Positions 2,457-30,531 of a stretch of 46,833 nucleotides of DNA are shown here, one piece after another (the first letter of the stretch is position 1; each line of letters opens with the position of its first letter). Source of the stretch: a virus. The stretch is from positions 1-46,833 of the IMG/VR virus record IMGVR_UViG_3300022752_004296. One strand, 5' to 3'. The notes under the pieces were generated by a model. It searched no databases, was not told the origin of the DNA, and saw nothing but the letters and a program-made list of their open reading frames with translations. Both the position numbers and the translations under genes were made by a program.

Positions 2457-2479
2457 GGGGTAGACTTAATGTCTACCCC
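2457..2479. terminator. Bidirectional intrinsic terminator between convergent genes
   Basis: A perfect 9-bp stem, GGGGTAGAC / GTCTACCCC, with the 5-base loop TTAAT. On the - strand it is followed by CTTATTTTT, and on the + strand by AATTTTG, so it is stronger leftward. It lies between the convergent fibre gene (ends 2450) and the RuvC-like gene, whose stop codon (2466-2468) is in the loop. Confidence 0.88.
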
Positions 2480-2963
2480 AATTTTGTATTTTACTGGATA
2501 TATGTTCACCAAGACAAATCGCATCTGCTTCATCTTGTGTTACTTCATATCCATACTTTTCCCGCACATGTTGTTGTGCGGAATTTTTTTGTTCTATTCT
2601 AGAGCGACCTTTTATGCCGCAACTTGATTTCCAGCTTGCCGCATAAACTAAATGTACTCCAATTTTTCTTTTATATAGCTCTGCTAATAATACTCCTTGC
2701 AGCATAGCTAGTTTTTTATAAGTTTGCATATTTGATTGTTCTTGAATTTCTTCAATAACTACTTGTATATCTTGACCTTCTTGCTCAGCCTCTTTTATCT
2801 TATCTATCATCCAAAAATTTAATTCAACAATCCTTTGAATAAATTCACCCTCAAATTTAATCTTCCCATATTCTATTAGTTCTGAATCTTGCCAAACCGA
2901 ATATCCAGTGATATTAGAAGATTGATCAAGAGCTAAATATATCACTGCCCTGTACTGCCCCAT
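2466..2963 (-). CDS. RuvC-like Holliday junction resolvase / RNase H-fold nuclease
   Basis: A 165-residue RNase H-fold nuclease that likely cuts branched DNA during recombination or before packaging. The acidic residues of the RuvC family are recognisable: the first Asp in LALDQSS near the N-terminus with the following GYS strand, a Glu pair in VIEEIQ, and a C-terminal D-E-A-D-A block followed by a helix, typical of phage RuvC proteins. The length matches small phage RuvC enzymes. It overlaps the dUTPase gene by 22 bases. The ATG at 2963 has only GGTGG right in front of it, so a GTG at 2945 that overlaps the dUTPase stop is a possible alternative start. Confidence 0.83.
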   Translation of the reverse strand: MGQYRAVIYLALDQSSNITGYSVWQDSELIEYGKIKFEGEFIQRIVELNFWMIDKIKEAEQEGQDIQVVIEEIQEQSNMQTYKKLAMLQGVLLAELYKRKIGVHLVYAASWKSSCGIKGRSRIEQKNSAQQHVREKYGYEVTQDEADAICLGEHISSKIQNWGRH

Positions 2964-3400
2964 CCACCAGCGCGGCCGGCTATCACATAATCATCATCAA
3001 CCAAAAAGAATTTTTCAAAAATTCCCTGAGCTATGCGTTCGCCTATTTCTATTTTTTGAGTAAATCCAGACAAATTGTATAAACAAATTCCAATGTTTCC
3101 ATCATTATTGAGATTATTATAATAATCTGAATCAATAATTCCAACAGAGTTTTTTACAACTATACCTTTTTTTAAAGCTGTCCCAGATCGCGGGTAAATT
3201 TTTAATATTTCATCAGCTTGCATATAAGCTTTAATATCTGTCCATACAACAATTGAACTACCATTTACAATATAAGCTTCTATTGGACTAACAAAATCAT
3301 ATCCGGCCGATCCACTCGTACTACGCTGTGGAATTACAATATCTTTTGCATGTTGACGATGTGCATCTATAACAATTTCAAATCCTCTAAGTTTATTCAT
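2942..3400 (-). CDS. dut: dUTP diphosphatase (trimeric dUTPase)
   Basis: Hydrolyses dUTP to dUMP and pyrophosphate, keeping uracil out of phage DNA and supplying dUMP to the ThyA encoded at 43-44 kb. All five motifs of the trimeric family are visible: SAGYDF (1), PRSGTALKKG (2), GIIDSDYYNN (3), IGERIAQGIFEKF (4) and the glycine-rich C-terminal arm AGGWGSTG (5). The length of 152 residues is normal. The ATG overlaps the upstream stop in an ATGA, with AGGAGAAGGA just before it, so translation is likely coupled to the gene upstream. Confidence 0.95.
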   Translation of the reverse strand: MNKLRGFEIVIDAHRQHAKDIVIPQRSTSGSAGYDFVSPIEAYIVNGSSIVVWTDIKAYMQADEILKIYPRSGTALKKGIVVKNSVGIIDSDYYNNLNNDGNIGICLYNLSGFTQKIEIGERIAQGIFEKFFLVDDDYVIAGRAGGWGSTGQ

Positions 3401-3597
3401 GCCAAATCCTTCTCCTGATTATATTCTTTTGTAATTTTAACAACATAGTATTCATTATCTTTTTTTACTTTTTTTGTTATACTATGAGCAACAACATTAT
3501 AACCTTCAGATTCTTTAATTTTTACCACAAACTGTTCAGCTTCTTCTTCTGTTGTAGCAAAATAACTTTCAATAAATTTTAAATTTTGAACTGACAT
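3397..3597 (-). CDS. Small hypothetical protein
   Basis: A 66-residue protein, Lys/Glu/Val-rich, with an alternating helix-strand pattern and no recognised motif. The ATG at 3597 has AGGAGG 5 bases upstream, and the stop overlaps the dUTPase start (ATGA). The residue pattern is compatible with a small two-strand, one-helix fold. Its function is unknown. Its place in the promoter-4238 operon with dUTPase and RuvC suggests expression with DNA metabolism genes. Confidence 0.6.
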   Translation of the reverse strand: MSVQNLKFIESYFATTEEEAEQFVVKIKESEGYNVVAHSITKKVKKDNEYYVVKITKEYNQEKDLA

Positions 3598-3605
3598 ATT
3601 TCCTC

Positions 3606-3839
3606 CTATCCCACAATTGAGCTAACTTCAAAATATTTATATTCTGTTATTAGCTCTTGTATAATTCTTTGAGTTATTGCAGTTGGACCAATTAAATATA
3701 CTTTATCAATACCATGTTCTTGCGCGGCTTTAAAGATATGTCCAGCATCAGTTTTATCTAATTTAATTTCGGTTCCATCATTAATCATTCCAGGTGTTCC
3801 AATTGTAAAATTAAAACAATTTATTGTTAATGTCTTCAT
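3606..3839 (-). CDS. Small hypothetical protein
   Basis: A 77-residue protein with no recognised family. The ATG at 3839 overlaps the stop of the upstream gene (ATGA) and has GGGGAG about 10 bases upstream. The middle (AAQEHGIDKVYLIGPTAITQ, residues 38-57) has the look of a helix followed by a hydrophobic strand and a Gly-Pro turn. No catalytic motif can be assigned. Confidence 0.58.
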   Translation of the reverse strand: MKTLTINCFNFTIGTPGMINDGTEIKLDKTDAGHIFKAAQEHGIDKVYLIGPTAITQRIIQELITEYKYFEVSSIVG

Positions 3840-4219
3840 ACTTCGTCAACTCCCCAATCAAAAATACATAATTGAAAGTAAACATCATCAATCCATAATT
3901 CCAAATGATTTTGTTCATTATTATATTCATAATATTTAATATCACTCATTTTAACATATGGATTTTCATCACTTTTATAAAAATAGCTTTCTTCAAAATA
4001 ACCATACATATTTTCAACTATTTCTTCAATAGAAGCTGATTTTATTTTAAAAACCGTATAATAATCAATTTGTTTTGATAATAAAATATAATATTGAGTA
4101 CCAATATTTTTTATTAAAAACTTTTTAAATTGATGAATAATTTCATCTTTTGGTTTTATTGTTGCATTTTGCAACATCATTTTTCCTACATCTTCCATGC
4201 GAATATCTGATTCTGCCAT
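3836..4219 (-). CDS. Hypothetical protein
   Basis: A 127-residue protein, rich in aromatic and acidic residues in its second half (several Tyr, Trp and Asp), without recognised motifs. The ATG at 4219 is chosen over the GTG at 4228 because GAGGTG lies 6 bases before the ATG. It is the first gene after promoter 4238-4266 and thus leads the short operon to the RuvC gene. Function unknown. Confidence 0.6.
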   Translation of the reverse strand: MAESDIRMEDVGKMMLQNATIKPKDEIIHQFKKFLIKNIGTQYYILLSKQIDYYTVFKIKSASIEEIVENMYGYFEESYFYKSDENPYVKMSDIKYYEYNNEQNHLELWIDDVYFQLCIFDWGVDEV

Positions 4220-4237
4220 TATTTTCACCTCATATTT

Positions 4238-4266
4238 ATTATAACATAGAGAGAATAGAAAGTCAA
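4238..4266 (-). promoter_or_regulatory. Sigma-A promoter, extended -10
   Basis: On the - strand TTGACT (4261-4266), a 17-bp spacer ending in TGT, then TATAAT (4238-4243). It drives the five small genes ending with RuvC. Its -35 lies in the loop and arm of the inverted repeat at 4250-4278. Confidence 0.85.
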
Positions 4267-4278
4267 TATCTATTCTCT
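4250..4278. repeat. 10-bp perfect inverted repeat over promoter -35 and polymerase stop
   Basis: Arms AGAGAATAGA (4250-4259) and TCTATTCTCT (4269-4278) with a 9-base loop. It covers the DnaE stop codon (4270) and the -35 of the next promoter. No T-run follows on either strand, so it is a weak candidate for a terminator and a good one for an operator or RNA-end hairpin. Confidence 0.8.
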
Positions 4279-7200
4279 ACTACCACGCAATACCAAATCT
4301 CCATTTTCATTTATCTCATCAATTAAATATAGAGTTTCTGTTGGAGTATGACTATAAGTCTTAGGAACAAATTCATTTCCTCGTCTATATCCTGTTAATA
4401 AAATTTTACGCCCACGCTTAAACCAAGATTTTTCTGTTATTTTTTTAGAACCATCATCTTGCTTTTCACTCATTTGTCTATCATAATAAGCAAATTGTTC
4501 AGGTCTAAATTTTGCATACACAACTCCATTTGCCGTAGCCAAAGCAATAGTAGATTTAATCTTATCTTTGCCGACAATAGTTCCTGCTATTACTGCGGTT
4601 TCATAGATGGGAATATTTTTATTTTTAAATTGTAACATTTTTTCTATGCGTGGCTCTTCTGGTAGAGTTAAAAATCCACTAACACCATACTTTGTTTGAT
4701 TAATAAAATCTAACTCATGAAAAGAATAGTAGAAACATACAGAATCCATTTCCCATGCCGCGAGATTGCCCTGTGCGTATTTATCCCATTCTTCTTGAAA
4801 TGTTCGTTCATTTAAAGCATTTAATAAATAATCTTTATTTTTAGAAATCCAATCTCTTATTCTATCCATTGATTTATCATAAAGCTTTTCCCATGTCTTG
4901 ATTAAAATACCCGATTTATTATCTACTAATTCTATATTTCTTTCATCAAAGTTTTTTACATAAAAAGCTGTCGCTCTATCATCCAATAAATAATAAGAGC
5001 CTTGTTTGCAATAGGTTTTTAAATATCTATTAAATTCATAAACTTTCATGGGCTCCGCTACAGATGAATCAATTAATTCATATTCAATAAGTTGTGGCAG
5101 ATTTTGTAAAGTGACTTTTTGTTTGACGCCCATGGTCATTTGCAAATATCTTGTCATTATTTCTTCTCTGGGTTTTTTTTCAAGATAGTCAAATGCCCCT
5201 GATTTAATTAAAGAAATCATAGCAGTTTTTGATAGCGGACATTTTTCCATAAAATCTTCAAGGTTTAAATATGGTCTATTTTCAACTATTCTATTTACTA
5301 CATCAGTTCCAACATTGGATAAGCCTTTTAACCCAAAGTAAATTCTTTGAGATTCAATATCTGGCTTAAAACTAAAACTAGATTTATTAATATGTGGCAG
5401 TGAGACTTCTACCTCTCTTGATTGCATATCGCCAATAGCAGTCGCAATTTTAGCATAATCTGTGCCGCGCTCATCATCGACATCTTCACTAGCTCCTGCA
5501 TTAACTGTAAGACATGCAGTATTCCAATATAGATTATCATACTTATTATAAAGATTTAATTCTTGTAAAGCTATTGTTGTGTATGGCATTGTGTGATTGC
5601 GGCTGAATGAATAACCTAATTGAGGTTCAATAGCTGTTGCATAGACATAGTCCATTAATTCTTTGCGGCAAGGTGATTTTTGATAAATCATTTTTTTAAG
5701 CTTTGGAATTTCATCCATCTTTTTCTTGCCTACAATTTTACGTGCATAATTAGCTTCTTCTAATGAAAAGCCTACTAATTGTGGATTCATTAAGATTTCC
5801 ATCATATCTTCTTGTGTATTTGGAACTCCAAAAACTGAAAGATAGTGCGGTTCAAGCATTTGTACTTCTGGCTTATTTAAACCTGCATTTTTAACTTCAT
5901 TATACCAAAGTTGAATGTTATTTTTAAAGTTTACATATTTATCAACTAAAACAGTTCCATCTTCTAATGGCATCAATCTCATTAAAGAATTTGCACTTGC
6001 CGCATCATCTAATGAAATTGGCTTAACCTTTTTAATGGCTTGACCGCCAACCATAGTATCAAATTGAAATAAATTAATTACAGAACCAGACCATGAAGGC
6101 TTCCAAACTGCATCAGAATAATCAAGTACATCTGGATGAATATATTTATCATATGTTGATTTTAAACTTCCTTGCCATTCTATTTGATTATCTTCTAATA
6201 ATAAATCTAGAGTTACACGTATCTTATCTAATGCCTCTATTGTTAAAAAATCATATTTTAAACAACCCATATAATCTGAATCATTCATATCCCATTGAGT
6301 GATAGGTTGTCCATTTGGAGCTTTCATTAATGCGTTCATTTCATAAAATCCATTATTAAAAATATAAACACCTGCGGCATGAATAGAGCGCTTATTTACT
6401 AAGCCTTCAATCTTTAAAATCATAGCTTCAAGACCTAGATATCTATCTATTTCTTTTTTGAGCATATGAATTGGATTACGACCTTTTTCTCGATTTCCAT
6501 ACAAACAATCTTGCAGCGGCCAAGTAAATCCACGTTCCTGTGGAATCATTCCTGTTAAATATAAACCAATATCACTATCAATTTCAAGACCTCTGCATGC
6601 AGTTAGAATGGCACTCTTTGGTCCTTCAGTTCCAAATGTACAAATATTTAAAACATTTTGTTCGCCAAAAAAATCTTTTACTGCTTCTAGTATTTGTGTT
6701 CTGCGTAGGGCTTGTGTATCAAAATCAATATCTGGTAATTCTGGTCTAGTTGCAGTTAAATGACGCCAATGTGGTAAATTCCACTTGATAGGATCCAATT
6801 GAGTTATTTCCAAGAGATAGCAAGAAAGAAATCCTGTGGCGGATCCGCGCGCAACTCCAACAAGGCTGTCTCCCTTATCCCATACTATTTCAATAATTTT
6901 AGCCATGGTATTATAATAGGAAGTCATGCGTAAATCTAATGTCTCAGAAATACCCCATAATTCTTTAGCCTCTTGATCTAATCTTTTCAAATATTCTTGA
7001 TTGAATAATTTTTTTTTAATCAATTGATTAATACAGCGAGTAATCCAATATTTATCTTGTTCATATGAACTCTTATACATTTTATGTAAAAATTCATAAT
7101 CTTTAATTTCATTTTCATTTATTTGTTCTGGAATTAAATTTATAGTTGGAATTGCTTGTGTTCGATATAAATCATAAAACTCTACTTTATCTAATATTGT

Positions 7201-8064
7201 TCTAGAATTTACAACCATTTCTTTAAATTCTTCTTGTGAAAAATCCAATTTTAAATAATCCCAAACTTGATCTTCAGACATAATATAAGCAGTAGCATAG
7301 AAGTCATCTACTTCGCGCTCACCATGTTTTGAATTTAAAAAAGCCTTGTGAATTTCACGATCTTCTTGATTTAAGTAATGAGAGTCTGTTGCAAAAAGCA
7401 TTGGTATATTAAAGTATTTGGACAGGGATTTCATCCTTCTATTGACTAATCTTTGTTCTTCAGCTGTATTTGGTGCAATTTCAAAAAATAAATCATCTCC
7501 AAAGCAATCTTTTAAAAATTGTACAAATTCAACAATTTTATTTTTATAAAGCTTTATTTCATTTTCATTTCCAGCTTGCTCGGCCGCATCTAATTTTAAA
7601 ATATATTGAGATAGTTCCCCACCTATACATGCGGTAGTTGCTATTAATGTTCCAGGATAAGTTTTACATATATCTAAAAGTTCTTGTTTTGTAACAGGAA
7701 CTCGTTCCATGCCTCGATCAAAATAAGATTTAGACCAGGCCGCAGAACTTAATACTCTTAGAGCTTTATGACCTTCGGCATTTTTAGCCATCAATAAAAA
7801 ATGTGGATATTTTCCACCCATTGATCTGTCATCAGTTAAATAAATCTCATTTCCTAAAATCAATTTAAAATCTTTATTTTGATAATTTTTTTTATAGTGT
7901 TGGATAGCTTCAACATGAGCACATAAAGCTTCATGATCAGTTATAGCAACAGCAGAAAGACCAAGCTCATAAGCTCGATCCATTAAATCTTTTGGCTTAA
8001 TTATACAATCAAGTAATCGCAAATTTGAGTAATGTGTATGATTGTGAACTGAGACATAGCTCAT
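4270..8064 (-). CDS. dnaE: DNA polymerase III alpha subunit, DnaE type with PHP domain
   Basis: The replicative DNA polymerase of the phage, 1264 residues. An N-terminal PHP domain (about 1-270) keeps its metal-site residues: HNH near residue 6, ITDHE, GNE, an H-L-L strand and a TDSHY near 235. The polymerase core has the catalytic Asp motif PDIDFD (Asp445/447/449) and the third Asp in KYDFL (near 605), as in DnaE enzymes. A helix-hairpin-helix region and a C-terminal OB-like domain (about 1120-1210) follow. No PolC-type exonuclease insert is seen. The ATG at 8064 is preceded by AAAAGGAGAAAGC, and a strong promoter lies 35 bases upstream. It is a single-gene unit between the terminator after speD and the hairpin at 4250-4278. 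Confidence 0.93.
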   Translation of the reverse strand: MSYVSVHNHTHYSNLRLLDCIIKPKDLMDRAYELGLSAVAITDHEALCAHVEAIQHYKKNYQNKDFKLILGNEIYLTDDRSMGGKYPHFLLMAKNAEGHKALRVLSSAAWSKSYFDRGMERVPVTKQELLDICKTYPGTLIATTACIGGELSQYILKLDAAEQAGNENEIKLYKNKIVEFVQFLKDCFGDDLFFEIAPNTAEEQRLVNRRMKSLSKYFNIPMLFATDSHYLNQEDREIHKAFLNSKHGEREVDDFYATAYIMSEDQVWDYLKLDFSQEEFKEMVVNSRTILDKVEFYDLYRTQAIPTINLIPEQINENEIKDYEFLHKMYKSSYEQDKYWITRCINQLIKKKLFNQEYLKRLDQEAKELWGISETLDLRMTSYYNTMAKIIEIVWDKGDSLVGVARGSATGFLSCYLLEITQLDPIKWNLPHWRHLTATRPELPDIDFDTQALRRTQILEAVKDFFGEQNVLNICTFGTEGPKSAILTACRGLEIDSDIGLYLTGMIPQERGFTWPLQDCLYGNREKGRNPIHMLKKEIDRYLGLEAMILKIEGLVNKRSIHAAGVYIFNNGFYEMNALMKAPNGQPITQWDMNDSDYMGCLKYDFLTIEALDKIRVTLDLLLEDNQIEWQGSLKSTYDKYIHPDVLDYSDAVWKPSWSGSVINLFQFDTMVGGQAIKKVKPISLDDAASANSLMRLMPLEDGTVLVDKYVNFKNNIQLWYNEVKNAGLNKPEVQMLEPHYLSVFGVPNTQEDMMEILMNPQLVGFSLEEANYARKIVGKKKMDEIPKLKKMIYQKSPCRKELMDYVYATAIEPQLGYSFSRNHTMPYTTIALQELNLYNKYDNLYWNTACLTVNAGASEDVDDERGTDYAKIATAIGDMQSREVEVSLPHINKSSFSFKPDIESQRIYFGLKGLSNVGTDVVNRIVENRPYLNLEDFMEKCPLSKTAMISLIKSGAFDYLEKKPREEIMTRYLQMTMGVKQKVTLQNLPQLIEYELIDSSVAEPMKVYEFNRYLKTYCKQGSYYLLDDRATAFYVKNFDERNIELVDNKSGILIKTWEKLYDKSMDRIRDWISKNKDYLLNALNERTFQEEWDKYAQGNLAAWEMDSVCFYYSFHELDFINQTKYGVSGFLTLPEEPRIEKMLQFKNKNIPIYETAVIAGTIVGKDKIKSTIALATANGVVYAKFRPEQFAYYDRQMSEKQDDGSKKITEKSWFKRGRKILLTGYRRGNEFVPKTYSHTPTETLYLIDEINENGDLVLRGSRE

Positions 8065-8098
8065 AAGCTTTCTCCTTTTAAATTTCATCTATATTAAT

Positions 8099-8127
8099 AT
8101 TATATCACAAATTATTAATTCTATCAA
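8099..8127 (-). promoter_or_regulatory. Sigma-A promoter of the polymerase gene
   Basis: On the - strand TTGATA (8122-8127), a 17-bp spacer ending in TGA, then TATAAT (8099-8104). It sits directly after the speD terminator T-run, about 35 bases before the DnaE start. Confidence 0.88.
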
Positions 8128-8128: not shown

Positions 8129-8157
8129 AAAAAAAAAGACTAGGTCTTATCCTAGCC
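8129..8157 (-). terminator. Intrinsic terminator after speD
   Basis: On the - strand GGCTAGG, a 6-base loop, CCTAGTC (one G-U pair), then nine T. The speD stop TAG (8152-8154) is inside the first arm. Confidence 0.92.
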
Positions 8158-8523
8158 TCTTATGCCTCGTTCAAAATAATTTTCTTGACATTCTTCAGGA
8201 CCCAATATTTTTTTAAAAATTTCAAGCCCTTGTTCTGGATAACAAACATCGGAGCAAGTATAGCAATCAAATGCTATAAATCCATATTCGGGATAAGTAT
8301 GAATGCTTAAATGAGATTCTTCCAAAAGAACTAAAATTGTTAATCCTTGCGGATCAAACTCTTTGTACATTACATTCACTACTGTTGCACCAGTACCTCG
8401 TGCCGCTAACTCACATAGCGATTTCATAAATTGCAAATCATTAATTAAATCATAGTCACAGCCCCATAAATCTGCAATCATGTGTTTGCCATATGTGCCG
8501 AATGAATTTTTTACTTGTTCCAT
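8152..8523 (-). CDS. speD: S-adenosylmethionine decarboxylase, pyruvoyl type (class 1B)
   Basis: Removes CO2 from S-adenosylmethionine to give the aminopropyl donor for spermidine synthesis. At 123 residues it is the size of bacterial SpeD proenzymes, which self-cleave to form a pyruvoyl group. The cleavage site Glu69-Ser70 and the catalytic His75 and Cys90 are present with the same spacing (+5, +20) as in the Thermotoga enzyme. The ATG at 8523 follows AAGGAGATAAAA; longer in-frame starts would overlap the helicase. It begins 3 bases after the helicase stop and shares its promoter. No spermidine synthase (SpeE) is present, so the product must go to a host enzyme, or the purpose is to lower SAM. 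Confidence 0.94.
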   Translation of the reverse strand: MEQVKNSFGTYGKHMIADLWGCDYDLINDLQFMKSLCELAARGTGATVVNVMYKEFDPQGLTILVLLEESHLSIHTYPEYGFIAFDCYTCSDVCYPEQGLEIFKKILGPEECQENYFERGIRG

Positions 8524-8525: not shown

Positions 8526-9659
8526 TTATCTCCTTACAATAATTATTTTTTGAACAGATCGAGTTACGGCTGTATATAGCCATTGTTTATGAGTATCTGG
8601 ATTTAACATTTCTTCAAATACTAAAATTTTATCAGCTTGACTTCCTTGAAATCTGTGTGTAGTTATTGCATAAGCCCAATCAAAAAGTTTAACATCTTTT
8701 AATACTGGAATACGCCGACCTGCTCTATAGATCCATTGCTCTTTTGGTTTTTGATTTTGATACAAAGCAGTATCAACGGTTATTTTTTTAAATAAGTCGT
8801 CTATATAATCTGGCTTAAAATCAATAGTTTGTTCTTTATTTGTAGAAAAATAAATTTTATCTATAAATCCAATTGTTCCGTTTACTAGCGGTAAATTTTG
8901 ATCATGGGATAGGGTGTTCCAATAATTTTTAGTACAAATTATCTTTTCTCCCTTTTCAGGAATAGGATTTTCATATCCTAATATTTTGCGGATTGTCGCA
9001 TTAATTTCATTTCTAGTATTATTATAGCCACATAAAATTTGATCTGCCCAAGTAAACATTCCCGCTACTAAATCAGATCTATCTATTATCATTATATTTT
9101 CATTTTTTGTTAAAGATAGGGATTTGCCCGCACGAATATCCATAGATAGTTGAATAATAGGATTGTCAGCCTCTTGCCGCAAAATTTCAGTTAATACGAT
9201 ATCGGGACGATCTAACAATCCATTTGTTTCACCTATTGGTGGTAATTGTCCGATATCTCCTAGTGCTATAATGGGAATCCTATGACTGCGTGCCACTGTT
9301 AAAATATCATTTGAAACCATTGATATTTCATCTATAACAATTAATTTATAGGGATAGTCCAATTCCTTTTTCTTTACATGAACAAAATCTCCACCCTTAT
9401 TTATAAAAGAAATATATAATAATGAATGTAGTGTTGTGGCAGGAATTCCTTTTTGTTGTAATACCAAACTAGCTTTGCCTGTAAAACAAGCAAAGGCTAC
9501 ATCATCTAGAGTGTAGCCCAAAGATTCTATAAGATATTGAACCAGAGTAGTTTTTCCAGTTCCCGCAAATCCCGCTATGGTAATGAGGGGTTTTTTTTGA
9601 GCCAATAATTTTTTGACTTCTTTTATAGCCCATTCTTGTTGTTGAGTTAATATAATCAT
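8526..9659 (-). CDS. SF1 DNA helicase, Dda/RecD-like
   Basis: A 377-residue ATP-dependent DNA helicase. Motifs in order: Walker A GFAGTGKTT (about 29-37), a FTGKAS motif (about 58), Walker B VIDEIS (about 105), motif III GDIGQLPPIG (about 134-143), motif V TTHRFQGSQAD (about 335) and motif VI YTAVTRS near the C-terminus. The size and motif spacing suit T4 Dda-like or short RecD2-like helicases, which work at origins, forks or in recombination. The ATG at 9659 is supported by AAGGTGAT just upstream; an in-frame GTG at 9668 is less likely. It is followed 2 bases later by speD in the same transcript. Confidence 0.92.
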   Translation of the reverse strand: MIILTQQQEWAIKEVKKLLAQKKPLITIAGFAGTGKTTLVQYLIESLGYTLDDVAFACFTGKASLVLQQKGIPATTLHSLLYISFINKGGDFVHVKKKELDYPYKLIVIDEISMVSNDILTVARSHRIPIIALGDIGQLPPIGETNGLLDRPDIVLTEILRQEADNPIIQLSMDIRAGKSLSLTKNENIMIIDRSDLVAGMFTWADQILCGYNNTRNEINATIRKILGYENPIPEKGEKIICTKNYWNTLSHDQNLPLVNGTIGFIDKIYFSTNKEQTIDFKPDYIDDLFKKITVDTALYQNQKPKEQWIYRAGRRIPVLKDVKLFDWAYAITTHRFQGSQADKILVFEEMLNPDTHKQWLYTAVTRSVQKIIIVRR

Positions 9660-9676: not shown

Positions 9677-9705
9677 ATTATAACATATTCAAAGGAATTG
9701 GTCAA
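9677..9705 (-). promoter_or_regulatory. Sigma-A promoter for helicase-speD
   Basis: On the - strand TTGACC (9700-9705), a 17-bp spacer ending in TGT, then TATAAT (9677-9682). It begins right after the terminator at 9707-9734. Confidence 0.9.
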
Positions 9706-9706: not shown

Positions 9707-9734
9707 AAAAAAAATCCCCCTCGATTAGAGGGGG
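9707..9734 (-). terminator. Intrinsic terminator of the tail-gene island
   Basis: On the - strand CCCCCTC, loop TAATC, GAGGGGG, then ATTTTTTTT. It closes the operon that ends with the small gene at 9739. Confidence 0.94.
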
Positions 9735-11547: not shown

Positions 11548-13293
11548 CTATTGATTTCTTTTATTTGTTATTATTTTTGAACTAATTTCTAATTTTTGAA
11601 TAATTTGTTGTTGTATTTTTATTGGAAGACTACTTCCAAATACATAACCAACAGCAGAATTGCTATATTTTTCATATGGACCATCCAATAAATAAACAGT
11701 GTCTGATAAAGACTTTCCTCTTATTATTGAAGAATCTATTACTATTACTTCATCAAGATCGGTTAATATAAATTGTTTTATAATTTGTGCATCTGTGGCA
11801 TTTAATGTTTCTGATACATTTCTTCCAATTATTTTTAAAATTGATGAATCAGATACTGATTGTGAATCTGTTTCTATTTGAGAAAAAGTTTTAAATTGAA
11901 CATCATCTTGTGCTTGAAACTCACCTAAAACAGTGGATTGACTACCTAAATTAAAAATAACAAAATTATTTAAATAAGTATTATAAGCACTGGCTTCTGC
12001 GCTACCTTTATAATAATTAAATCCAATTTGATTTTGCGCAGCTGCGTTATTATAAGTTACACCAGTTTGACTTATAATTGTAATTCCGGTTGTAGTTATT
12101 GTTGATTGAGAAATTACATCAATTTGATCATTTTTAACCTGAACCGCATATCTATAAATAGTTCCTGCTACATGTGATGTAACTCCACTAGCTATTGTTG
12201 TAGTTATTCCACCAGTAGTCCAGTTTAAAGAAACTCCAGTACTTCTTAAATCTAACCATAAATAACTTGAATCTGTAGTATTATATCTAAAATATGGAAT
12301 AAATGCTCTTCCTGTAGTTCCTGCTACTGGAGCAAAAACTTCATCAAATTCAAATCTAAAATTATTTGTATTTGGAAAAATATCTTTAAATATATTTGCG
12401 GATCCATTAACATCATTAGAAGAATATAGTCTTGAAGTATTGATTCCACCTAATAAAACAATGAATGAAATTCCAGCATTAGTTCCTACTGAACTATAAG
12501 GTCCTCCAAAATCTATTGATCCTACAGTTATTCCAGTTGTTACTGCACGATTAAAAGAATCATAAACTATCGGTGAATAATCAATATTAGTATTAGAAGT
12601 CACTTTAACACTACTTATTGCACCATATGGATATGTTATTGATGCAATATTGTTTAAAGCAGTTTCAAATGTAAAATTAATTGGATTGTTTAAAAGTGCC
12701 GCAGTGTAAAATGTACCTCTATAGGTTGCGCCTGCGCCATTAATTCCTACATATACATCTATTTGTCTTCCTCTAAATGAAAGCTTGAAATTATGTGGTG
12801 CTGTATATATTCCATTATATATTGGATTAAATGGAATGCTCTGTGAACCAATTCTTTGTAAATCATAATTGTTTGATCCATCATTTTCTTGAATTTCAAG
12901 AGTTGTTAAATTTATAGCAAATCTTATATTCGATGCACCAGATGAAGAAAGTCCATTTGAAGCTATTCTAAAATTTGGTCTAGGATAGACAGCAGTGCCT
13001 CCACCCCATTGTCCATTAGATGACCACTCTAAATCATAATTAGTGCTTTTTCCTGCGCTAATTCCAACACCAAATCCAGATCCTCCTGTAGTTACACAAT
13101 ACATATAACTAGTAGTTGTTCCCAGTGTACTAATTCCCCATACTGAAGAACCAGCACCAGTTCCAGCATAAAGAGGTTTCCATTTATTAAATCCAATTTG
13201 AGGTGTAGCATTTATAGCTGTCCATGTTGGATTAACAGCTTGAACTCTATTTGTAAAAGTATCATATACTAGTGTTGTTCCTGAAGAGGCCAT
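11548..13293 (-). CDS. Large tail/adhesion protein with two jelly-roll-like repeats and helical tail
   Basis: A 581-residue protein. Two units start alike, YDTFTNR at residue 10 and YDSFNRA at residue 244, each followed by about 220 residues rich in Ser/Thr/Asn/Gly and beta-strands. This indicates a duplicated concanavalin A-like fold. From about residue 460 the composition changes to charged, Ile/Ser/Asp-rich sequence likely to form helix or coil for oligomerisation or attachment. There is no enzyme motif. It is the largest gene of the island and the best candidate for the receptor-binding protein. AGAGGA lies 12 bases before the ATG. Confidence 0.68.
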   Translation of the reverse strand: MASSGTTLVYDTFTNRVQAVNPTWTAINATPQIGFNKWKPLYAGTGAGSSVWGISTLGTTTSYMYCVTTGGSGFGVGISAGKSTNYDLEWSSNGQWGGGTAVYPRPNFRIASNGLSSSGASNIRFAINLTTLEIQENDGSNNYDLQRIGSQSIPFNPIYNGIYTAPHNFKLSFRGRQIDVYVGINGAGATYRGTFYTAALLNNPINFTFETALNNIASITYPYGAISSVKVTSNTNIDYSPIVYDSFNRAVTTGITVGSIDFGGPYSSVGTNAGISFIVLLGGINTSRLYSSNDVNGSANIFKDIFPNTNNFRFEFDEVFAPVAGTTGRAFIPYFRYNTTDSSYLWLDLRSTGVSLNWTTGGITTTIASGVTSHVAGTIYRYAVQVKNDQIDVISQSTITTTGITIISQTGVTYNNAAAQNQIGFNYYKGSAEASAYNTYLNNFVIFNLGSQSTVLGEFQAQDDVQFKTFSQIETDSQSVSDSSILKIIGRNVSETLNATDAQIIKQFILTDLDEVIVIDSSIIRGKSLSDTVYLLDGPYEKYSNSAVGYVFGSSLPIKIQQQIIQKLEISSKIITNKRNQ

Positions 13294-13311
13294 GATTCAA
13301 ACCATCCTCTC

Positions 13312-13791
13312 TTAACTAAATGTAATTTGCCAAGTAATTGCAAGACTATCAGAAGAAGATGTAAATTGAATATCTCCAGTAGTTTGGCGAGCTATAATAG
13401 TAAAACCTGCTCCACCTGAAGTAAGTCCACCAAAAATTCCAACTTCACGAACTACGGTTAAGCCAGTTGAAGTTAATCCAGTTAAAGTTCCTTGATATTG
13501 TACCATATTAGAAGGGGCACTATTACTTCTTGTAGTTGTTACTCGGCTGTAACTAGTTCCTGCGGTACTTAATTCAGCTCCTAAAGTAGTATTACCAGCC
13601 GCAACTGCATAACCTGAACTTGTACCAAATCCAAACCAAGTTCCAACAGTGGCTCCTGATCCCAAAATACTTCCAATCCATTGTTTTCCATAATCTGTTA
13701 CTACATTTTGTTTACTACCTTTTTCAATGGTTCCATCTACACGAGTTAATTCCCATGAAATGTGACCAGTCATTTTTACACCATCATTCAT
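13312..13791 (-). CDS. Virion protein, first gene of the tail island
   Basis: A 159-residue protein. A charged N-terminus (about 1-35, with W-E-L-T-R-V-D-G-T and N-V-V-T-D-Y-G) is followed by a Gly/Ser/Thr-rich beta domain, a layout seen in many phage tail-fibre and tail-collar proteins. AAGGAG lies 10 bases upstream of the ATG at 13791; a second ATG six codons in is also possible. It leads the six-gene island that ends at 9739. Confidence 0.65.
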   Translation of the reverse strand: MNDGVKMTGHISWELTRVDGTIEKGSKQNVVTDYGKQWIGSILGSGATVGTWFGFGTSSGYAVAAGNTTLGAELSTAGTSYSRVTTTRSNSAPSNMVQYQGTLTGLTSTGLTVVREVGIFGGLTSGGAGFTIIARQTTGDIQFTSSSDSLAITWQITFS

Positions 13792-20743: not shown

Positions 20744-21880
20744 TTATAGCTTAATTACTGGAATTTGTCGCTGAGATTGTTCTTGAATTCTTTTTTGTTG
20801 TATAGCATTCATTAATATATTTTTATTATTTAAAGCCTCCGGATCTGTTGGTTTAAATTTTAAAATTTCTTCATTATGATGAAGTGCTCTATCTAAATCA
20901 CCTAAAAGAGCAAAACAATTTGCTAATATAGCATGTGGTAACCAAGTCCAACAATTTTCCATTAAAATAGGAGAATATTCAGGTTTGACTAACATTGTTG
21001 TTAATTCAGCCCAAAAAATAGCTAATTTTAAATTTCTATTTTCTAAAAAATAATTTGCAATTTGACTTGTTGCCTCAGCTCTTGGATTATCATATTCAAA
21101 ACTTTTTGTTAAATAAGGCAGTATATTTTCCCTCTTGCCTAAAAAATTAGATGCTTCTGAACATCTTCCACAAGCAGAAATTGCATGTTCAATCCATAAA
21201 TCATTGCCCTGTCTTTTAAACATTTTTTCATAAATCTCTATTGCATCAGCATATCTTTTATGATCAAATAACTCATTTCCATAATGATATAATTCTCTAG
21301 CGTCTAATTCTTTTCCATTGGCTATTTGTGTTTCATAGATGCGAATATTCCTATCGGCATTTGGCTCAGTTCTATTTGTTCCATGCACAATTCGTATATC
21401 AATTCCAGCAATTTTTTCTGTTTCTGGAATAATTATACATTCATGTACAGCTCCACTCCATTGATAATTTTTTGAGCGTTTAATAAGTCGTTCTCTTTGA
21501 ACACTCATTAATGGAACTCCATTATCATCAAAGCGAACTATATATCCCATCATCCATGCATCTATATTTGTATCCATGTTTATTTTTAAATTTAATAACT
21601 TTTCCATTTCTTGAGGTTCCCAAAAATCATCAGCATCCATCCAAAGAATATAATCTTTAGTAGCTTTACTAAAAGCAAAATTTCTTGCTGCAGAAAAATC
21701 ATCTATCCATTTAAAATCATAAGTTTTTGCACTATATTTATTACATATCTTTTTAGTAGGCCAACTAGGAAAAGTTTGAACAATAATAATTTCATCTACA
21801 ACTTTTTCAATAGATTTTAAAGCTCTATCTAAAGTATCAATTTCATCTTTAACTATCATACATAAACTAATTGAAGTCAT
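20744..21880 (-). CDS. Family 2 glycosyltransferase with TPR-like tail (divergent paralogue)
   Basis: A 378-residue protein. The N-terminal GT-A domain (about 1-190) carries SLCMIVKDE, W-I-D-D-F-S-A-A-R-N and the metal site MDADD (about 81-85). Helical pairs like TPRs follow, as in Firmicutes SunS-like transferases. It is clearly related to the gene just upstream (21877-22992) but has VQTFPSW where the relative has VDTGSRD (residues 34-40), so it lacks the Asp that normally holds the nucleotide base. The ATG overlaps the upstream stop (ATGA). The sugar and acceptor are unknown; protein or surface glycan modification is plausible. Confidence 0.85.
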   Translation of the reverse strand: MTSISLCMIVKDEIDTLDRALKSIEKVVDEIIIVQTFPSWPTKKICNKYSAKTYDFKWIDDFSAARNFAFSKATKDYILWMDADDFWEPQEMEKLLNLKINMDTNIDAWMMGYIVRFDDNGVPLMSVQRERLIKRSKNYQWSGAVHECIIIPETEKIAGIDIRIVHGTNRTEPNADRNIRIYETQIANGKELDARELYHYGNELFDHKRYADAIEIYEKMFKRQGNDLWIEHAISACGRCSEASNFLGKRENILPYLTKSFEYDNPRAEATSQIANYFLENRNLKLAIFWAELTTMLVKPEYSPILMENCWTWLPHAILANCFALLGDLDRALHHNEEILKFKPTDPEALNNKNILMNAIQQKRIQEQSQRQIPVIKL

Positions 21881-22992
21881 AATTTAATTACCGTTCCTTT
21901 TTTAGAATTCATTTTTTCTTTTATTTGTTTTTTATTTTTTAAATAACCTTTTTGATTTGGAAACATTTTTATTAAAATGTTATTGTGTTTTAAAGCTTTT
22001 TCATAATCGCCAATAGCAAAATATATGTTTGCTATATATTGATGTGGCAACCAATCTTCTCTATTATCTAGTAAAATACCTTGATGTTTTTCTTCAAAGC
22101 CAAGACACATTTGACACCATTTTAAAGCAGCTTCTACTTTATTTTGTTCCCAATAAGTTTTTACAATTTTTAAAATTATTGTTTTACTTGGTGGAGATTT
22201 TTTTAAAAATTCAAAAAGAATATTTAAAGATTTAGTATATTGATTAGTAGAAATATAGCATTCAGAAAGATATGCTATTGCTTGAATATACAAACTTCTA
22301 TTATCAGACAATCCTTTTTCAATGGCTTGATTAAAATATTTTATTGATTCTAAATAATAATTTATATCTAAATATTCTATTCCAAGATGAAAAAGATCTC
22401 TGCTATCTAATTCAATATTTTCTTCAATCATTTTTTTATAAATATTTAAATTTCTTTCACTTGGGATATCCGATTCTGATTTAAGTTTTTTATGTGTTAT
22501 ATTTATATCATTTATAAAAATACTATTTTCTGCAGAATTTTTTATTGTTTCATGAACTTTTCCAATCCATTTTAAATTTTTAGATTTTCTTATAATTCTT
22601 TCTCGTAAAGATGTTAATTCTAAATTACCATTTAAATCAAATGATACTTCATATTTTGTAACTATACAATCATAAGAAAAACTATCTAATTTATTTTTTA
22701 AATCTAATAAATTTTTTTGGCTATTTTGTGTAATTATATCATCTGCATCCAACCACATTAACCACTCGCAATTACCTTTACTAAAGGCAAAATTGCGAGC
22801 AGCCGCAAAATCATCTATCCATTCAAAATCATAAATTTTATCTGTATATTGTAATGCTATTTCTTTTGTGCGATCTCTTGATCCAGTATCAACAATAATA
22901 ATTTCATCAACAATATCTTTTATACAATCAAGACATCTAGCCAATACCGCTTCTTCATTTTTTACTATCATACATAAACTAATTGTAGACAT
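21877..22992 (-). CDS. Family 2 glycosyltransferase with TPR-like tail
   Basis: A 371-residue protein. The GT-A domain has SLCMIVKNE at the start, VDTGSRDRT (34-42) for the nucleotide, the block W-I-D-D-F-A-A-A-R-N, and the metal-binding LDADD (81-85). Residues after about 190 form helical repeats resembling TPRs. This build is typical of SunS-type and other Bacillota glycosyltransferases that modify peptides or make surface glycans. AAGGAGATTTTAA precedes the ATG. It follows Dps by 11 bases and overlaps the next transferase by 4 bases, so the pair arose by tandem duplication and is co-expressed. Confidence 0.88.
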   Translation of the reverse strand: MSTISLCMIVKNEEAVLARCLDCIKDIVDEIIIVDTGSRDRTKEIALQYTDKIYDFEWIDDFAAARNFAFSKGNCEWLMWLDADDIITQNSQKNLLDLKNKLDSFSYDCIVTKYEVSFDLNGNLELTSLRERIIRKSKNLKWIGKVHETIKNSAENSIFINDINITHKKLKSESDIPSERNLNIYKKMIEENIELDSRDLFHLGIEYLDINYYLESIKYFNQAIEKGLSDNRSLYIQAIAYLSECYISTNQYTKSLNILFEFLKKSPPSKTIILKIVKTYWEQNKVEAALKWCQMCLGFEEKHQGILLDNREDWLPHQYIANIYFAIGDYEKALKHNNILIKMFPNQKGYLKNKKQIKEKMNSKKGTVIKL

Positions 22993-23003
22993 TTAAAATC
23001 TCC

Positions 23004-23441
23004 TTATTTTGAACTGGATCGTAAGAAATAAATTATTTTTTCATATGTAACTAAATGTCCACTAAATTTTTCAACTGCAGCCCATGCATTAATTTTATCT
23101 GCTTCAGCAACTACTTCTATTGTTAAATCATAGATAATTTGAAAAGTTTCAAGTGCTGTATCAATAGCTTCTGAGGCAGTACAGGTTTTACTATCAAGAG
23201 TAGGCAGCATGCTGGTTGTTGAAATAACATCTAGTTTTGTAATGGGATTATCTTGAAAAAATCTAATTTGCTCTGCGGTTTCATCTTCATTATCATTTAA
23301 AGTTTCATATAAGTCACCGAGATATGGATGTAGAGTAAAAAACAATTGATCTTCTAAATTCCAATGTAGATTATGAATATTTATTGCACCTGCATGTAGT
23401 GTTGCTTGATAGGTTTTTAATAGCTGTAATAATTTGTTCAT
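23004..23441 (-). CDS. dps: Dps-family ferritin-like protein
   Basis: A 145-residue protein of the Dps family, 12-subunit cages that oxidise and store iron with peroxide and protect DNA. The inter-subunit ferroxidase site is complete: His26, His38, Asp53 and Glu57, with the same spacing (12, 15, 4) as in known Dps proteins, around the signatures NLHWNL and FFTLHPYL. No long basic N-terminal DNA-binding tail is seen. A consensus promoter ends only 6 bases before the ATG. It leads an operon with two glycosyltransferases. Confidence 0.92.
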   Translation of the reverse strand: MNKLLQLLKTYQATLHAGAINIHNLHWNLEDQLFFTLHPYLGDLYETLNDNEDETAEQIRFFQDNPITKLDVISTTSMLPTLDSKTCTASEAIDTALETFQIIYDLTIEVVAEADKINAWAAVEKFSGHLVTYEKIIYFLRSSSK

Positions 23442-23447
23442 GTTAAT

Positions 23448-23476
23448 ATTATATCCTCCTTTATTATATTTGTCAA
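23448..23476 (-). promoter_or_regulatory. Consensus sigma-A promoter overlapping the dps ribosome site
   Basis: On the - strand TTGACA (23471-23476), a 17-bp spacer, then TATAAT (23448-23453). The spacer contains AAGGAGG. The -10 ends 6 bases before the dps ATG, so transcripts from it would start at or near the A of the ATG. Confidence 0.82.
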
Positions 23477-23478
23477 TA

Positions 23479-24276
23479 TTAATTAGTAAAAAAATCTTTA
23501 TATTTTTCTGTAAAAATTAAATCTGGCAATAATTCTTTTGGATATTTTAATTTTGTATAATTTTCTTTTTTCATACTTTTTAAAAAATCTTTTAATTGAT
23601 TTTCATTATCAGCTTCTCTATGAGCAGCATCTTTTAATTTATTTTTTAATCTTTGCTCTCCTCCAAAATATGTAAAATGCCAACCACCATTTTCTATAAT
23701 TGCATTTGGTTGAGATAGTCTTACTTTATTTGTGCATATTAAATTTTTTGATTTTAAAATTTTTGGATGATACCAAATAAAGGGAGAATTGTCTTCATTT
23801 AATTTTAAATTATCAATAGAAAAATTGAACATATTCATTGCAAGTGAAACAAGTTTAAAATCATTTAGAGTTGTATGGTTTTCTTTTAATTTTAATATCT
23901 TTTCTTTGTTTGGAATTTCATCCAAATCTGAAACAATAATTATATCATCTGATTGAGAATCAAAAATTCCATTTTTTAAATATTTTCTTTGGTACTCTTC
24001 TCTTTTCCATGATGGAATAGAGTCCTCACTAGATGTCCAAATGGGGCTTTCCAAACTATCTTCATTTGGAAAAGAAATAAAATAATATCTTATCTTATTT
24101 TTAATTTTTTCATCAAACCAATCAAATGAAAAATTTTGTTGTTTTTCTAATCCAGATTGAGTTTTATCAGCTTCAACAATAATAAAATAATCAACAATAT
24201 CTTTTAAATAATCTATTCTAAAATTTATTAATTCTTTTTCATTATTAAAATTAAAACAATCATAAATTTTTATCAT
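23479..24276 (-). CDS. Family GT17 glycosyltransferase
   Basis: A 265-residue protein resembling GT17 enzymes (the family of beta-1,4-mannosyl-glycoprotein N-acetylglucosaminyltransferase and many bacterial relatives). Signatures: I-Y-D-C-F-x-F-x-N-E at the start, FIIVEADKTQSG (about 32-43), the metal motif SDLDEIP (about 115-121) and G-G-W-H-F-T-Y-F-G (about 198-206). There is no signal peptide; it acts in the cytoplasm. The ATG at 24276, just past the upstream stop, fits the family start; an ATG at 24291 is possible. It is the third of three glycosyltransferases in a row. Confidence 0.85.
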   Translation of the reverse strand: MIKIYDCFNFNNEKELINFRIDYLKDIVDYFIIVEADKTQSGLEKQQNFSFDWFDEKIKNKIRYYFISFPNEDSLESPIWTSSEDSIPSWKREEYQRKYLKNGIFDSQSDDIIIVSDLDEIPNKEKILKLKENHTTLNDFKLVSLAMNMFNFSIDNLKLNEDNSPFIWYHPKILKSKNLICTNKVRLSQPNAIIENGGWHFTYFGGEQRLKNKLKDAAHREADNENQLKDFLKSMKKENYTKLKYPKELLPDLIFTEKYKDFFTN

Positions 24277-24277
24277 T

Positions 24278-25120
24278 TTATTTATCACCATAAACTTTTT
24301 TTATAATTTCATTCATTTCTAAATTTCTATCATATTGATGTAAAACATAATATTCTTTTCCACTTTTTGAAGAATAAACTCTATTATCTCTTGTTATTGG
24401 AAAAGTATCTAAATCAGATTCTCCTGGTTTTCCTAAATATAAAGAATGATGCAATGCCCATGCATCTTCATAGTCTGGAATTAAAATTTTTGACTTTACT
24501 GGTTCAAGAGTTGCAATTAAAGATAAACCAGGTAAATCTGTTCCCCAGTTTTTAATAGAAGATCCTAAAAAATAAAATAATGCTAAAAAATCAACAAAAT
24601 CTGGACACTTTCCTCCAATAACATCTGGATTTAATATCCGCTCATCCATTAAATGGTCTAAGACAAAAGGGCCGAATGTATTTATCATGTGATTTATACA
24701 CCATTCTGAACCTCTTAAATAGGAGGGCTCTGCTCCAATTAATATTGTTTTGTCAGGATTATTTTTAAATGCAATATCCATAAATTCAAATGGATCTTTT
24801 TGAAAACAAACATCTCTAGAACCTGTAATCAAAATATATCTATATTCTTTTTTTCTAAACTTTAAAAAAGTCCATAAAGATCCAAATCTTTCAATACCTC
24901 CAAAGAAAGTATTGTGTTCATAAGAACCATCTTCTTTTTTAAGAGAAGGTGATAATATCATATAACCCCTAGATTCAATCTTTTGCACTAAATCTTTGCT
25001 TGCATTATGAACCAACATAATTTTATCAGCATTGATATTAGCTTTATCAATTGAGTTCATCCAAATTTGCATATCTTCCCAATTTAATTGATGACAAAAT
25101 CCTATAATTAAATCTTTCAT
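24278..25120 (-). CDS. Putative glycosyltransferase (paralogue of the next gene upstream)
   Basis: A 280-residue protein sharing matched blocks with the gene at 25133-25996: R-F-G-S-L-W-T-F-L, ILITGSRDVCFQKDPF (about 95-110), D-V-I-G-G-K and a C-terminal L-H-Q-Y-D-R. The SRDVxFQ(K/S)(D/N)PF segment sits where nucleotide-sugar transferases carry their DxD metal site. The GT-A fold assignment is therefore probable but not certain. AAAGGAG precedes the ATG. It is a likely tandem duplication product within the three-transferase operon. Confidence 0.68.
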   Translation of the reverse strand: MKDLIIGFCHQLNWEDMQIWMNSIDKANINADKIMLVHNASKDLVQKIESRGYMILSPSLKKEDGSYEHNTFFGGIERFGSLWTFLKFRKKEYRYILITGSRDVCFQKDPFEFMDIAFKNNPDKTILIGAEPSYLRGSEWCINHMINTFGPFVLDHLMDERILNPDVIGGKCPDFVDFLALFYFLGSSIKNWGTDLPGLSLIATLEPVKSKILIPDYEDAWALHHSLYLGKPGESDLDTFPITRDNRVYSSKSGKEYYVLHQYDRNLEMNEIIKKVYGDK

Positions 25121-25132
25121 AATAAACTCCTT

Positions 25133-25996
25133 TTATTCATATAAATCATTTATGTATTTTAATATATGACTAGATCTATCATATTGATGAATTAAATCAA
25201 ATTCTTTTAATTGATTATAAGTTAAAACTTTATTATTTTTCCAAATTGGTGATGGTTCTATGGGTACAAGTGGTAATTTAAAATCTTCAAAAAAATATAA
25301 TCCAACTTGAGCAGCCCATCCTTCTATTCCATAAGAATAATATATACTTGATTTTAAAGGCTCCAGAGAAGCTACAAAGTTTAGTACAGCTTGATCTGAA
25401 TAAAAAACTGGATTATATTTTATAATTTGATGAATTAATGCAAAAAAATCTGCAACTTCTCTAGTTTTTCCAGCAATAACATCTGAACTAAATATTGGAG
25501 AATTTTCTATATTTAAATATGCAGCTTGTCCCAACGTGGCTAATGCATTCGGACCATTAAACCATGTTTCATTTTTAAATAATGTTGGTTCTGGTGATAA
25601 TATAATTTTTTTATTTTTATTTTCTTCAAAAATATTTTTAATATAATTAAATGGATTTGATTGAAAAATAACATCTCTACAACCAGTCATTAATACATTT
25701 TCATATAAATCAATTTTATCTTTTAAAAAAATCCATAAGTGACCAAACTTTTCTATTGCTAGATTTTTATTAGTTGTATCAAATTCATATTTATATGATC
25801 CATCTTTCTGTGGATTAGAAGTTGCAACTATTAAAAATCCTTCATTTGAAATTTTTTCTATTGTTTCTTTATCCATATTATAAACAATTAATATTTTATC
25901 TCCAGAAAAATCAGTATTATTTATTGATCGAATCCATGGTTTTAAATCATTCCATTTTAAACTAAAGCTTGTAGAAATTAATAAGTCTTTTTTCAT
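25133..25996 (-). CDS. Putative glycosyltransferase (paralogue of the downstream gene)
   Basis: A 287-residue protein. Conserved blocks shared with its neighbour include K-F-G-H-L-W-I-F-L, VLMTGCRDVIFQSNPF (about 96-111), D-V-I-A-G-K and I-H-Q-Y-D-R near the end. The overall layout of alternating strands and helices with one Asp-rich site suggests a GT-A enzyme. The ATG at 25996 is chosen because TGGAGAAAATT lies before it; longer versions would run into the terminator hairpin. No promoter fits between that hairpin and the gene. Confidence 0.66.
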   Translation of the reverse strand: MKKDLLISTSFSLKWNDLKPWIRSINNTDFSGDKILIVYNMDKETIEKISNEGFLIVATSNPQKDGSYKYEFDTTNKNLAIEKFGHLWIFLKDKIDLYENVLMTGCRDVIFQSNPFNYIKNIFEENKNKKIILSPEPTLFKNETWFNGPNALATLGQAAYLNIENSPIFSSDVIAGKTREVADFFALIHQIIKYNPVFYSDQAVLNFVASLEPLKSSIYYSYGIEGWAAQVGLYFFEDFKLPLVPIEPSPIWKNNKVLTYNQLKEFDLIHQYDRSSHILKYINDLYE

Positions 25997-26006
25997 AATT
26001 TTCTCC

Positions 26007-26036
26007 ATAAAAATTTGGGGCTGCCGAAGCAACCCC
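26007..26036 (-). terminator. Intrinsic terminator with UUCG tetraloop
   Basis: On the - strand GGGGTTGC, loop TTCG, GCAGCCCC (8-bp stem, one G-U pair), then AAATTTTT. The stable C(UUCG)G loop makes it a strong hairpin. The ribosome site of the next gene (ATG 25996) starts right after the T-run. Confidence 0.92.
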
Positions 26037-26044
26037 TGTATTTT

Positions 26045-26293
26045 TTAAGCTTGATTTGGATCAAAATTGCGACCAGTATCTGTTAAAACCAACAACTTAA
26101 TTTCTTTTGCTTTTCCAGCGTCATCATTTACTACAACTGGAACTCTAATACCCAAGCCATTTTTAACCAACTGATTCATTAGTGCATTTACACCTTGCCA
26201 AGAAATTCCTAGAGCATCAGCAGTTGGTTTTAGTTGAACTGGATCTGCTTGTCCTTTTAAGTAATTAATTAATCGAATTGTGTTATCTGTCAT
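26045..26293 (-). CDS. Small winged-helix DNA-binding protein
   Basis: An 82-residue protein whose spacing fits a winged helix-turn-helix: helix 1 RLINYLKG (about 6-13), helix 2 PTADALG, recognition helix WQGVNALMNQLVKNG (about 33-47), then a two-strand wing VPVVVND...EIKLLVLTDTG. It probably regulates transcription. It has its own perfect promoter and a strong terminator directly after it, giving a monocistronic unit, as is common for phage regulators. AAAGGAG precedes the ATG. Confidence 0.75.
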   Translation of the reverse strand: MTDNTIRLINYLKGQADPVQLKPTADALGISWQGVNALMNQLVKNGLGIRVPVVVNDDAGKAKEIKLLVLTDTGRNFDPNQA

Positions 26294-26338
26294 TTTAATA
26301 ATCTCCTTTAAATTTAATTTAATTTATTTGATAAATAT

Positions 26339-26367
26339 ATTATATCATTTAATTTTATATTTGTCAA
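26339..26367 (-). promoter_or_regulatory. Perfect consensus sigma-A promoter for the winged-helix gene
   Basis: On the - strand TTGACA (26362-26367), a 17-bp spacer ending in TGA, then TATAAT (26339-26344). An unusually long A/T-only leader of about 40 bases follows. Confidence 0.93.
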
Positions 26368-26374
26368 ACATATT

Positions 26375-26578: not shown

Positions 26579-26604
26579 TCTTCTCCTTTTATTAATATAA
26601 TAAT

Positions 26605-26633: not shown

Positions 26634-26637
26634 TATT

Positions 26638-30512: not shown

Positions 30513-30531
30513 ATTATACCACAACATATTG

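Follow-up and report, generated by a model that had tools for sequence, protein, structure and literature searches.

A probable SAM decarboxylase gene of Bacilli kind in a virus record with an SPbeta-like replicase

Among the polyamine enzymes reported from phages, SAM decarboxylase (AdoMetDC, the product of speD or speH) is by far the commonest, and one phage has been reported with both AdoMetDC and spermidine synthase (PMC9992855). Phage SpeD homologues can be AdoMetDC, arginine decarboxylase or ornithine decarboxylase; the SpeDs of four named phages brought spermidine back to E. coli delta-speD, and those of S-PM2 and P2559S are assayed phage AdoMetDCs (PMC9992855). For cells, a SpeD without SpeE has been described as a flag for the look-alike arginine (SpeDA) and ornithine (SpeDC) decarboxylases (PMC10407285). 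The same source gives S63, H68 and C83 as the self-processing and catalytic residues of T. maritima AdoMetDC, reports that the Glu-Ser processing site and the catalytic His and Cys are common to SpeDA and SpeDC too, names one proline as invariant in bona fide AdoMetDC but not so in SpeDA, and lists Gln, Thr, Phe and Tyr as the diagnostic residues of SpeDC (PMC10407285). Cellular SpeDA sequences are said to differ little from AdoMetDC.

We investigated a member of this family in a record of 46,833 bases (the window, meaning the whole stretch of DNA that was analysed), which belongs to the class of linear virus records, often fragments. Two phage relatives that also carry speD, L002 and L114, were compared with it.

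The speD gene and its predicted product

The sequence-only reading had placed a SAM decarboxylase gene at 8152-8523, and this was borne out, with an open reading frame at that place and profile scores far above chance. The frame lies on the minus strand, runs from an ATG at 8523-8521 to a stop that ends at 8152, and encodes 123 aa. A longer mechanical call of 143 aa, starting at 8583, was set aside; ATG 8523 is preferred because a clear Shine-Dalgarno sequence, AAGGAG (8535-8530, minus strand, found by eye), precedes it by 6 bases, just upstream of the stop codon of the neighbouring helicase gene. The features of the gene are as follows.

8152..8523, minus strand: speD, probable class 1b AdoMetDC proenzyme, 123 aa (family profiles, alignment, AlphaFold/Foldseek)
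8314..8319, minus strand: codons of Glu69 (8319-8317) and Ser70 (8316-8314), the predicted place of cleavage and source of the pyruvoyl group (T. maritima alignment)
8299..8301, minus strand: codon of His75, equivalent to T. maritima His68 (alignment)
8254..8256, minus strand: codon of Cys90, equivalent to T. maritima Cys83 (alignment)

PF02675 (AdoMet_dc) is the sole Pfam family in the protein (113.2 bits, against a cut-off of 25), the NCBIfam equivalog TIGR03330 scores 122.6 bits (cut-off 75.65), and PHROGs gives the protein the same function (PHROG 3125, E 4.2e-30). Enzymes of the HTVC201P type also belong to the Pfam AdoMetDC family, and membership of it does not by itself fix the substrate. 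Glu69-Ser70, His75 and Cys90 align with T. maritima AdoMetDC within its motifs ESHLTIHTWPE and FTCG; residue numbering and alignment thus agree with the earlier claim that the pyruvoyl site is intact. Cleavage between Glu69 and Ser70 is predicted to give a beta chain of residues 1-69 and an alpha chain of residues 70-123 with an N-terminal pyruvoyl group.

The AlphaFold model of the protein, built from an alignment of 26 sequences, has a mean pLDDT of 92.8. Foldseek matched it to T. maritima AdoMetDC 1vr7 (E 1.5e-14, rmsd 1.0 Å, TM 0.85/0.89); the top five PDB matches are the T. maritima and Aquifex enzymes, and all of the PDB matches at E<=0.001 (8/8) are AdoMetDC. Weaker rows, to the PII-like SbtB (E 0.013-0.022, TM to query 0.33-0.34), we take as a common alpha-beta layout only, and the fold cannot tell AdoMetDC from the look-alike decarboxylases. 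Residues, motifs and predicted fold together support the earlier reading of an intact pyruvoyl enzyme, which is probably AdoMetDC.

Setting of speD in the virus record

The speD gene follows a Dda-like helicase in a predicted two-gene unit, whose order is a terminator-like stem, a promoter-like site, the helicase, speD and a hairpin.

9716..9734, minus strand: terminator-like stem of 7 pairs (6 G-C) with a T tract, which would close a transcript upstream of the helicase
9677..9705, minus strand: promoter-like TTGACC-17-TATAAT with TG before the -10 (extended -10), 11/12 matches (consensus scan)
8526..9659, minus strand: Dda-like SF1 helicase, which opens the unit (phrog_325 E 8.8e-91, PF13604)
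8134..8161, minus strand: intrinsic terminator-like hairpin of 11 pairs, overlapping the end of speD
8099..8127, minus strand: promoter-like TTGATA-17-TATAAT (TG), ahead of the DNA polymerase III alpha unit

The helicase was mechanically called from a GTG at 9668, and its ATG at 9659 comes after the ribosome site AAAGGTG (by eye). Two bases separate the helicase stop from the speD ATG; together with the 9705-9677 site and the terminator, this gap fits the earlier proposal of a promoter common to speD and helicase, which remains a prediction. The hairpin at 8161-8134 has a folding energy of -12.1 kcal/mol (z -2.94), equalled by 0/200 shuffles, and the promoter-like site at 8099-8127 suggests that speD closes its own unit. 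Terminator-like sites are enriched in the speD region (8 found, 1.2 expected), and promoter-like sites near speD at a looser threshold show no enrichment (18 found, 16.4 expected).

Of the sites with at least 11/12 matches and an extended -10, nine lie on the minus strand and one on the plus strand; a first-order simulation of 30 sequences predicts about 0.2 for each strand. The nine minus-strand sites are spread over window 4238-42416. Transcription units with such sites are probably served by the sigma-A-type polymerase of a host. The same class of site also stands before several other genes and does not mark speD as early. Early timing of speD would nevertheless be a fair guess, because clusters I and II of SPbeta are early and its late cluster is reported to be transcribed by a phage RNA polymerase (PMC8270828).

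The pairing of helicase and speD is not conserved: in L002 and L114 the upstream neighbour of speD is another gene, which looks structural (by eye). In all three records speD lies downstream of a RecJ-like gene, and the polymerase gene adjoins it in the window and in L002, where it follows speD directly (for L002 and L114, by visual matching of the genes); the L114 record ends before that point. The mechanical start of the polymerase frame (4270-8088), at 8088, is probably too early; by eye, an ATG at 8064 has an AAAGGAG site ahead of it and agrees with where the L002 homologue starts.

No nucleotide-level relative of window 1-24000 was found in the phage collection at megablast sensitivity. 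For the DNA polymerase III alpha, the best 20 of 1,350 matching phage records (43-45% identity) all come from Enterococcus or Bacillus phages of the SPbeta or VRE9/EF1 kind, and the 1,350 as a whole span many hosts; the best matches point to a Bacillota host. The SPbeta c2 record has 134,416 bases, and if sizes are similar the window may cover far less than a complete genome.

The record also carries a RecJ-like exonuclease, a primase, a DnaB-like helicase, a Sak4-like protein, a dUTPase and a RuvC-like resolvase. We additionally observed a glycan and sugar-nucleotide island at 20744-40570, an unusual cargo for a phage fragment, with several glycosyltransferase-like genes, epimerases, an aminotransferase, a nucleotidyltransferase, a 3-dehydroquinate-synthase-like protein, a thiamine-pyrophosphate enzyme and an HpcH/HpaI-like aldolase. 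Elsewhere there are genes for a ribonucleotide reductase (791 aa, 28114-30489), a thymidylate synthase (43334-44194) and a small protein with the Pfam domain cREC_REC (cyclic-phosphate processing receiver; 41025-41390, 80.3 bits).

A spermidine synthase gene had been described as missing, and this holds for the 46.8-kb record, in which PF01564 gave no match at E<=1 with control genomes positive; it does not extend to the whole phage, of which the record is probably a fragment. The same profile found nothing at E<=1 in the window and three relatives (0/4 records), nothing at E<=0.001 in a set that overlaps these (0/6 records), and nothing over its cut-off in further viral records (0/35, drawn from 80 viral loci), all of these records being possible fragments. 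A tblastn search with the MaAM05 SpeE over 90 viral loci, which include overlapping and near-identical records and so make the 35-record profile search the better test, gave nothing beyond the query's own source. We therefore rejected the lone speD as an anomaly, since it is the usual state in phages (PMC9992855; 0/35 viral records). The absence of speE from the record is hardly informative, lone phage speD genes being already known and common, and the window is a further example and no surprise.

Several records with other arrangements were encountered. One further phage record with speD (G023, the record of L123) has a PF01564 match below cut-off at 13286-13564 (E 1.4e-4, 16.7 against 22.9 bits). 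In Microcystis phage MaAM05 (MW495066), four annotated genes lie side by side at 2465-5243: speE, speB (agmatinase) and two speD homologues, of which one is canonical and the other divergent, possibly encoding a look-alike decarboxylase. Together they resemble an almost full route to spermidine on a single phage. The paper on Microcystis phage PhiMa05, which may not be MaAM05, mentions one SpeD, and a term search of it gave no hit for speE or agmatinase. Near one end of an unannotated 735-kb phage record (LR756503), positions 830-1204 encode a protein 56% identical to the divergent MaAM05 SpeD. Phages with speD in the collection searched are mostly cyanophages, with Bacillus phage vB_BcoS-136 and Moorella phage MTATph1 also present.

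AdoMetDC or a look-alike decarboxylase

We aligned 69 homologues for motifs and for a tree. The window motifs FDPQG and ESHLSIHTYPEYG...DCYTC resemble those of T. maritima, S-PM2 and P2559S. In contrast, HTVC201P, an assayed arginine decarboxylase, has ETSH and AFHSWDE and is without FxPQG. The SpeDs of phiYS40 and phiN3 also lack the FDPQG and ESHLSIHTYPEYG motifs, although they are AdoMetDCs by assay (PMC9992855), so that the presence of the motifs is suggestive and their absence would be indecisive. In its central region the window protein carries two prolines (P58 and P78), evidence against SpeDA that is weak, because phiYS40 and phiN3 lack both at these columns of the alignment and the conserved proline of PMC10407285 may be another one.

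The window, L002 and L114 form a clade (support 100/98), from which seven divergent rows are split by a branch supported at 100/94. These seven are four pelagiphage-type sequences including HTVC201P, phiN3, speH_1 of MaAM05, and LR756503; HTVC201P is the only assayed arginine decarboxylase among them, and none is an assayed SpeDC. In the alignment the window protein is unlike these divergent rows. The position of phiN3 here, as an AdoMetDC by assay, has a parallel in the published work, where it falls in the ODC clade (PMC9992855). When 9 of the 69 rows, those on long branches, were dropped, the separation rose to 100/100 and the window clade joined Bacilli SpeD and the Bacillus phage BcoS-136 (99/87). 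A tree constrained to hold the window with the seven divergent rows gave p-AU 0.062, with no formal rejection. A clade test of the window clade with Bacilli (p-AU 0.0515) was set aside because BcoS-136, which lies inside that group, had been omitted from it. The trees drew on 17 of the 80 Bacilli loci and 30 of the 80 viral loci, and their rows include neither SpeDA nor SpeDC from cells.

A scan of bacterial genomes with the required pattern ESHxS[IV]HTY gave 585 relatives, of which 80 were taken; these are 44-52% identical to the window SpeD, and nearer kin may exist. We take all 80 (of 585) loci to belong to Bacilli genera or groups, the placement of Tumebacillus having been looked up. SpeE (TIGR00417) scored over cut-off in all 11 of the Bacilli genomes searched; the SpeD related to the window protein is the sole PF02675 gene in 6 of the 11, and the other 5 carry a second one. 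Because SpeE is present in 11/11 and SpeD is single in 6/11, the Bacilli SpeD clade is best read as AdoMetDC, following the genomic reasoning set out in PMC10407285. The universal presence of SpeE among these 11 also means that a Bacilli-type host is expected to have the partner enzyme.

These results bear on a second identity for the window protein, that of a neofunctionalised SpeD which, as in pelagiphage HTVC201P and some freshwater phages, would decarboxylate arginine (SpeDA) or ornithine (SpeDC) through its pyruvoyl group and so feed putrescine synthesis. We consider this identity improbable. The lone SpeD would be a genomic flag for it by the standard used for cells (PMC10407285), but the cellular kin of the window SpeD co-occur with SpeE; several phage SpeDs are such enzymes (PMC9992855), but the window protein differs from HTVC201P at ESH, IHTYPE and FxPQG, and P58 and P78, for what little they weigh, are in place. 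PF00491 (agmatinase/arginase) gave no match at E<=0.1 in any of 5 phage records, all possible fragments, which also tells against it, and the tree test at p-AU 0.062 leaves it some room. On balance the sequence evidence leans against SpeDA or SpeDC, as the less good fit, and towards AdoMetDC.

Role in infection and comparison with known systems

We propose that the window encodes a working phage AdoMetDC (SpeD/SpeH) of Bacilli kind, which boosts the host spermidine pathway in infection, and we regard this as probable. By homology, the proenzyme would cleave itself at Glu69-Ser70 to give the pyruvoyl enzyme, which would decarboxylate SAM, its presumed substrate; the SpeE of a Bacilli-like host would then combine decarboxylated SAM with putrescine to give spermidine. 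During infection the phage-supplied SpeD would thereby relieve a rate-limiting step of spermidine synthesis in the host, with early timing and a benefit to the phage as further presumed steps. Feeding host SpeE, as suggested before, is the simplest reading, given SpeE in 11/11 genomes of the Bacilli kin and a host assumed to be Bacilli-like.

The other suggestion made from the sequence, that the enzyme drains SAM and so starves SAM-dependent host defence with an effect like that of the T3 SAM lyase, seems to us very unlikely. SAM would be the substrate if the protein is AdoMetDC, and the host-type look of the promoter and the company of a helicase would permit early expression; yet no feature sets the window protein apart from an ordinary SpeD, the biosynthetic role accounts for the same facts, and phages have a dedicated SAM lyase (PMC7877911). 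Nothing of the sequence or fold of a SAM lyase was found in the speD protein, which has AdoMet_dc as its only Pfam family and AdoMetDC as 8/8 of its PDB matches, and a literature search for a phage SpeD acting as a SAM drain listed no such paper. A stronger form, in which AdoMetDC co-expressed with a recombination-type helicase would outpace host SAM resupply and weaken SAM-dependent defences, with spermidine as a by-product, is more doubtful again. The gene might also be a passenger, captured from a host and without a role in infection; the upstream neighbour varies among relatives, which makes the locus look fluid, but the reading frame is open in the window, L002 and L114, and it keeps its place downstream of the RecJ-like gene in each of these records, with the polymerase gene adjoining it in the window and L002. 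Moreover, speD shows the signature of purifying selection. Between the window and L002, dN is 0.25 and dS 1.52 (the one usable phage pair, dS being saturated for window-L114 and L002-L114), and in all three phage pairs changes gather at third codon positions, where they far exceed second-position changes in the two pairs with the window (57 to 22 for window-L002 and 67 to 19 for window-L114, each over 121 codons). A passenger accordingly seems very unlikely, and we retain a biosynthetic AdoMetDC as the preferred reading.

With the window, the known speD phages gain one that has a replicase like that of SPbeta and a SpeD of Bacilli type, and the case explores how far sequence alone can tell a genuine AdoMetDC from the arginine and ornithine decarboxylases that look like it. 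In a culturable relative, if found, the effect of phage SpeD during infection, a rise in spermidine or a fall in SAM, could be tested directly.

Compared with described systems, the T3-type SAM lyase is like the window protein in that it would consume SAM and has an alpha-beta fold, and one phage SAM lyase has been likened to the PII-like superfamily (PMC7877911); its chemistry differs from that of AdoMetDC (PMC7877911), and the significant family and fold matches of the window protein are to AdoMetDC. The HTVC201P homologue is likewise a phage-borne member of the family with no SpeE in its immediate neighbourhood, but it differs in the ETSH and AFHSWDE motifs, the lack of FxPQG and its separate clade. 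The speD of cyanophage S-PM2 encodes a phage-borne class 1b AdoMetDC with similar central motifs, although it belongs to another SpeD clade and another phage group. Bacillus phage vB_BcoS-136 has a SpeD 39.8% identical to that of the window, and in the pruned tree the two fall together with the SpeDs of Bacilli; the BcoS-136 protein has an annotated length of 357 aa, with additional regions at both termini, and stands in a different gene setting. The Bacilli SpeD/SpeH proteins (Tumebacillus, Paenibacillus, Brevibacillus and Thermoactinomycetaceae), at the 44-52% identity given above for 80 of 585 relatives, share ESHLSIHTYPE, DCYTC and the class 1b length with the window; they read SESHLS and CYTCG where the window has EESHLS and CYTCS, and they are encoded by bacteria, whose speE lies at another place in the genome.
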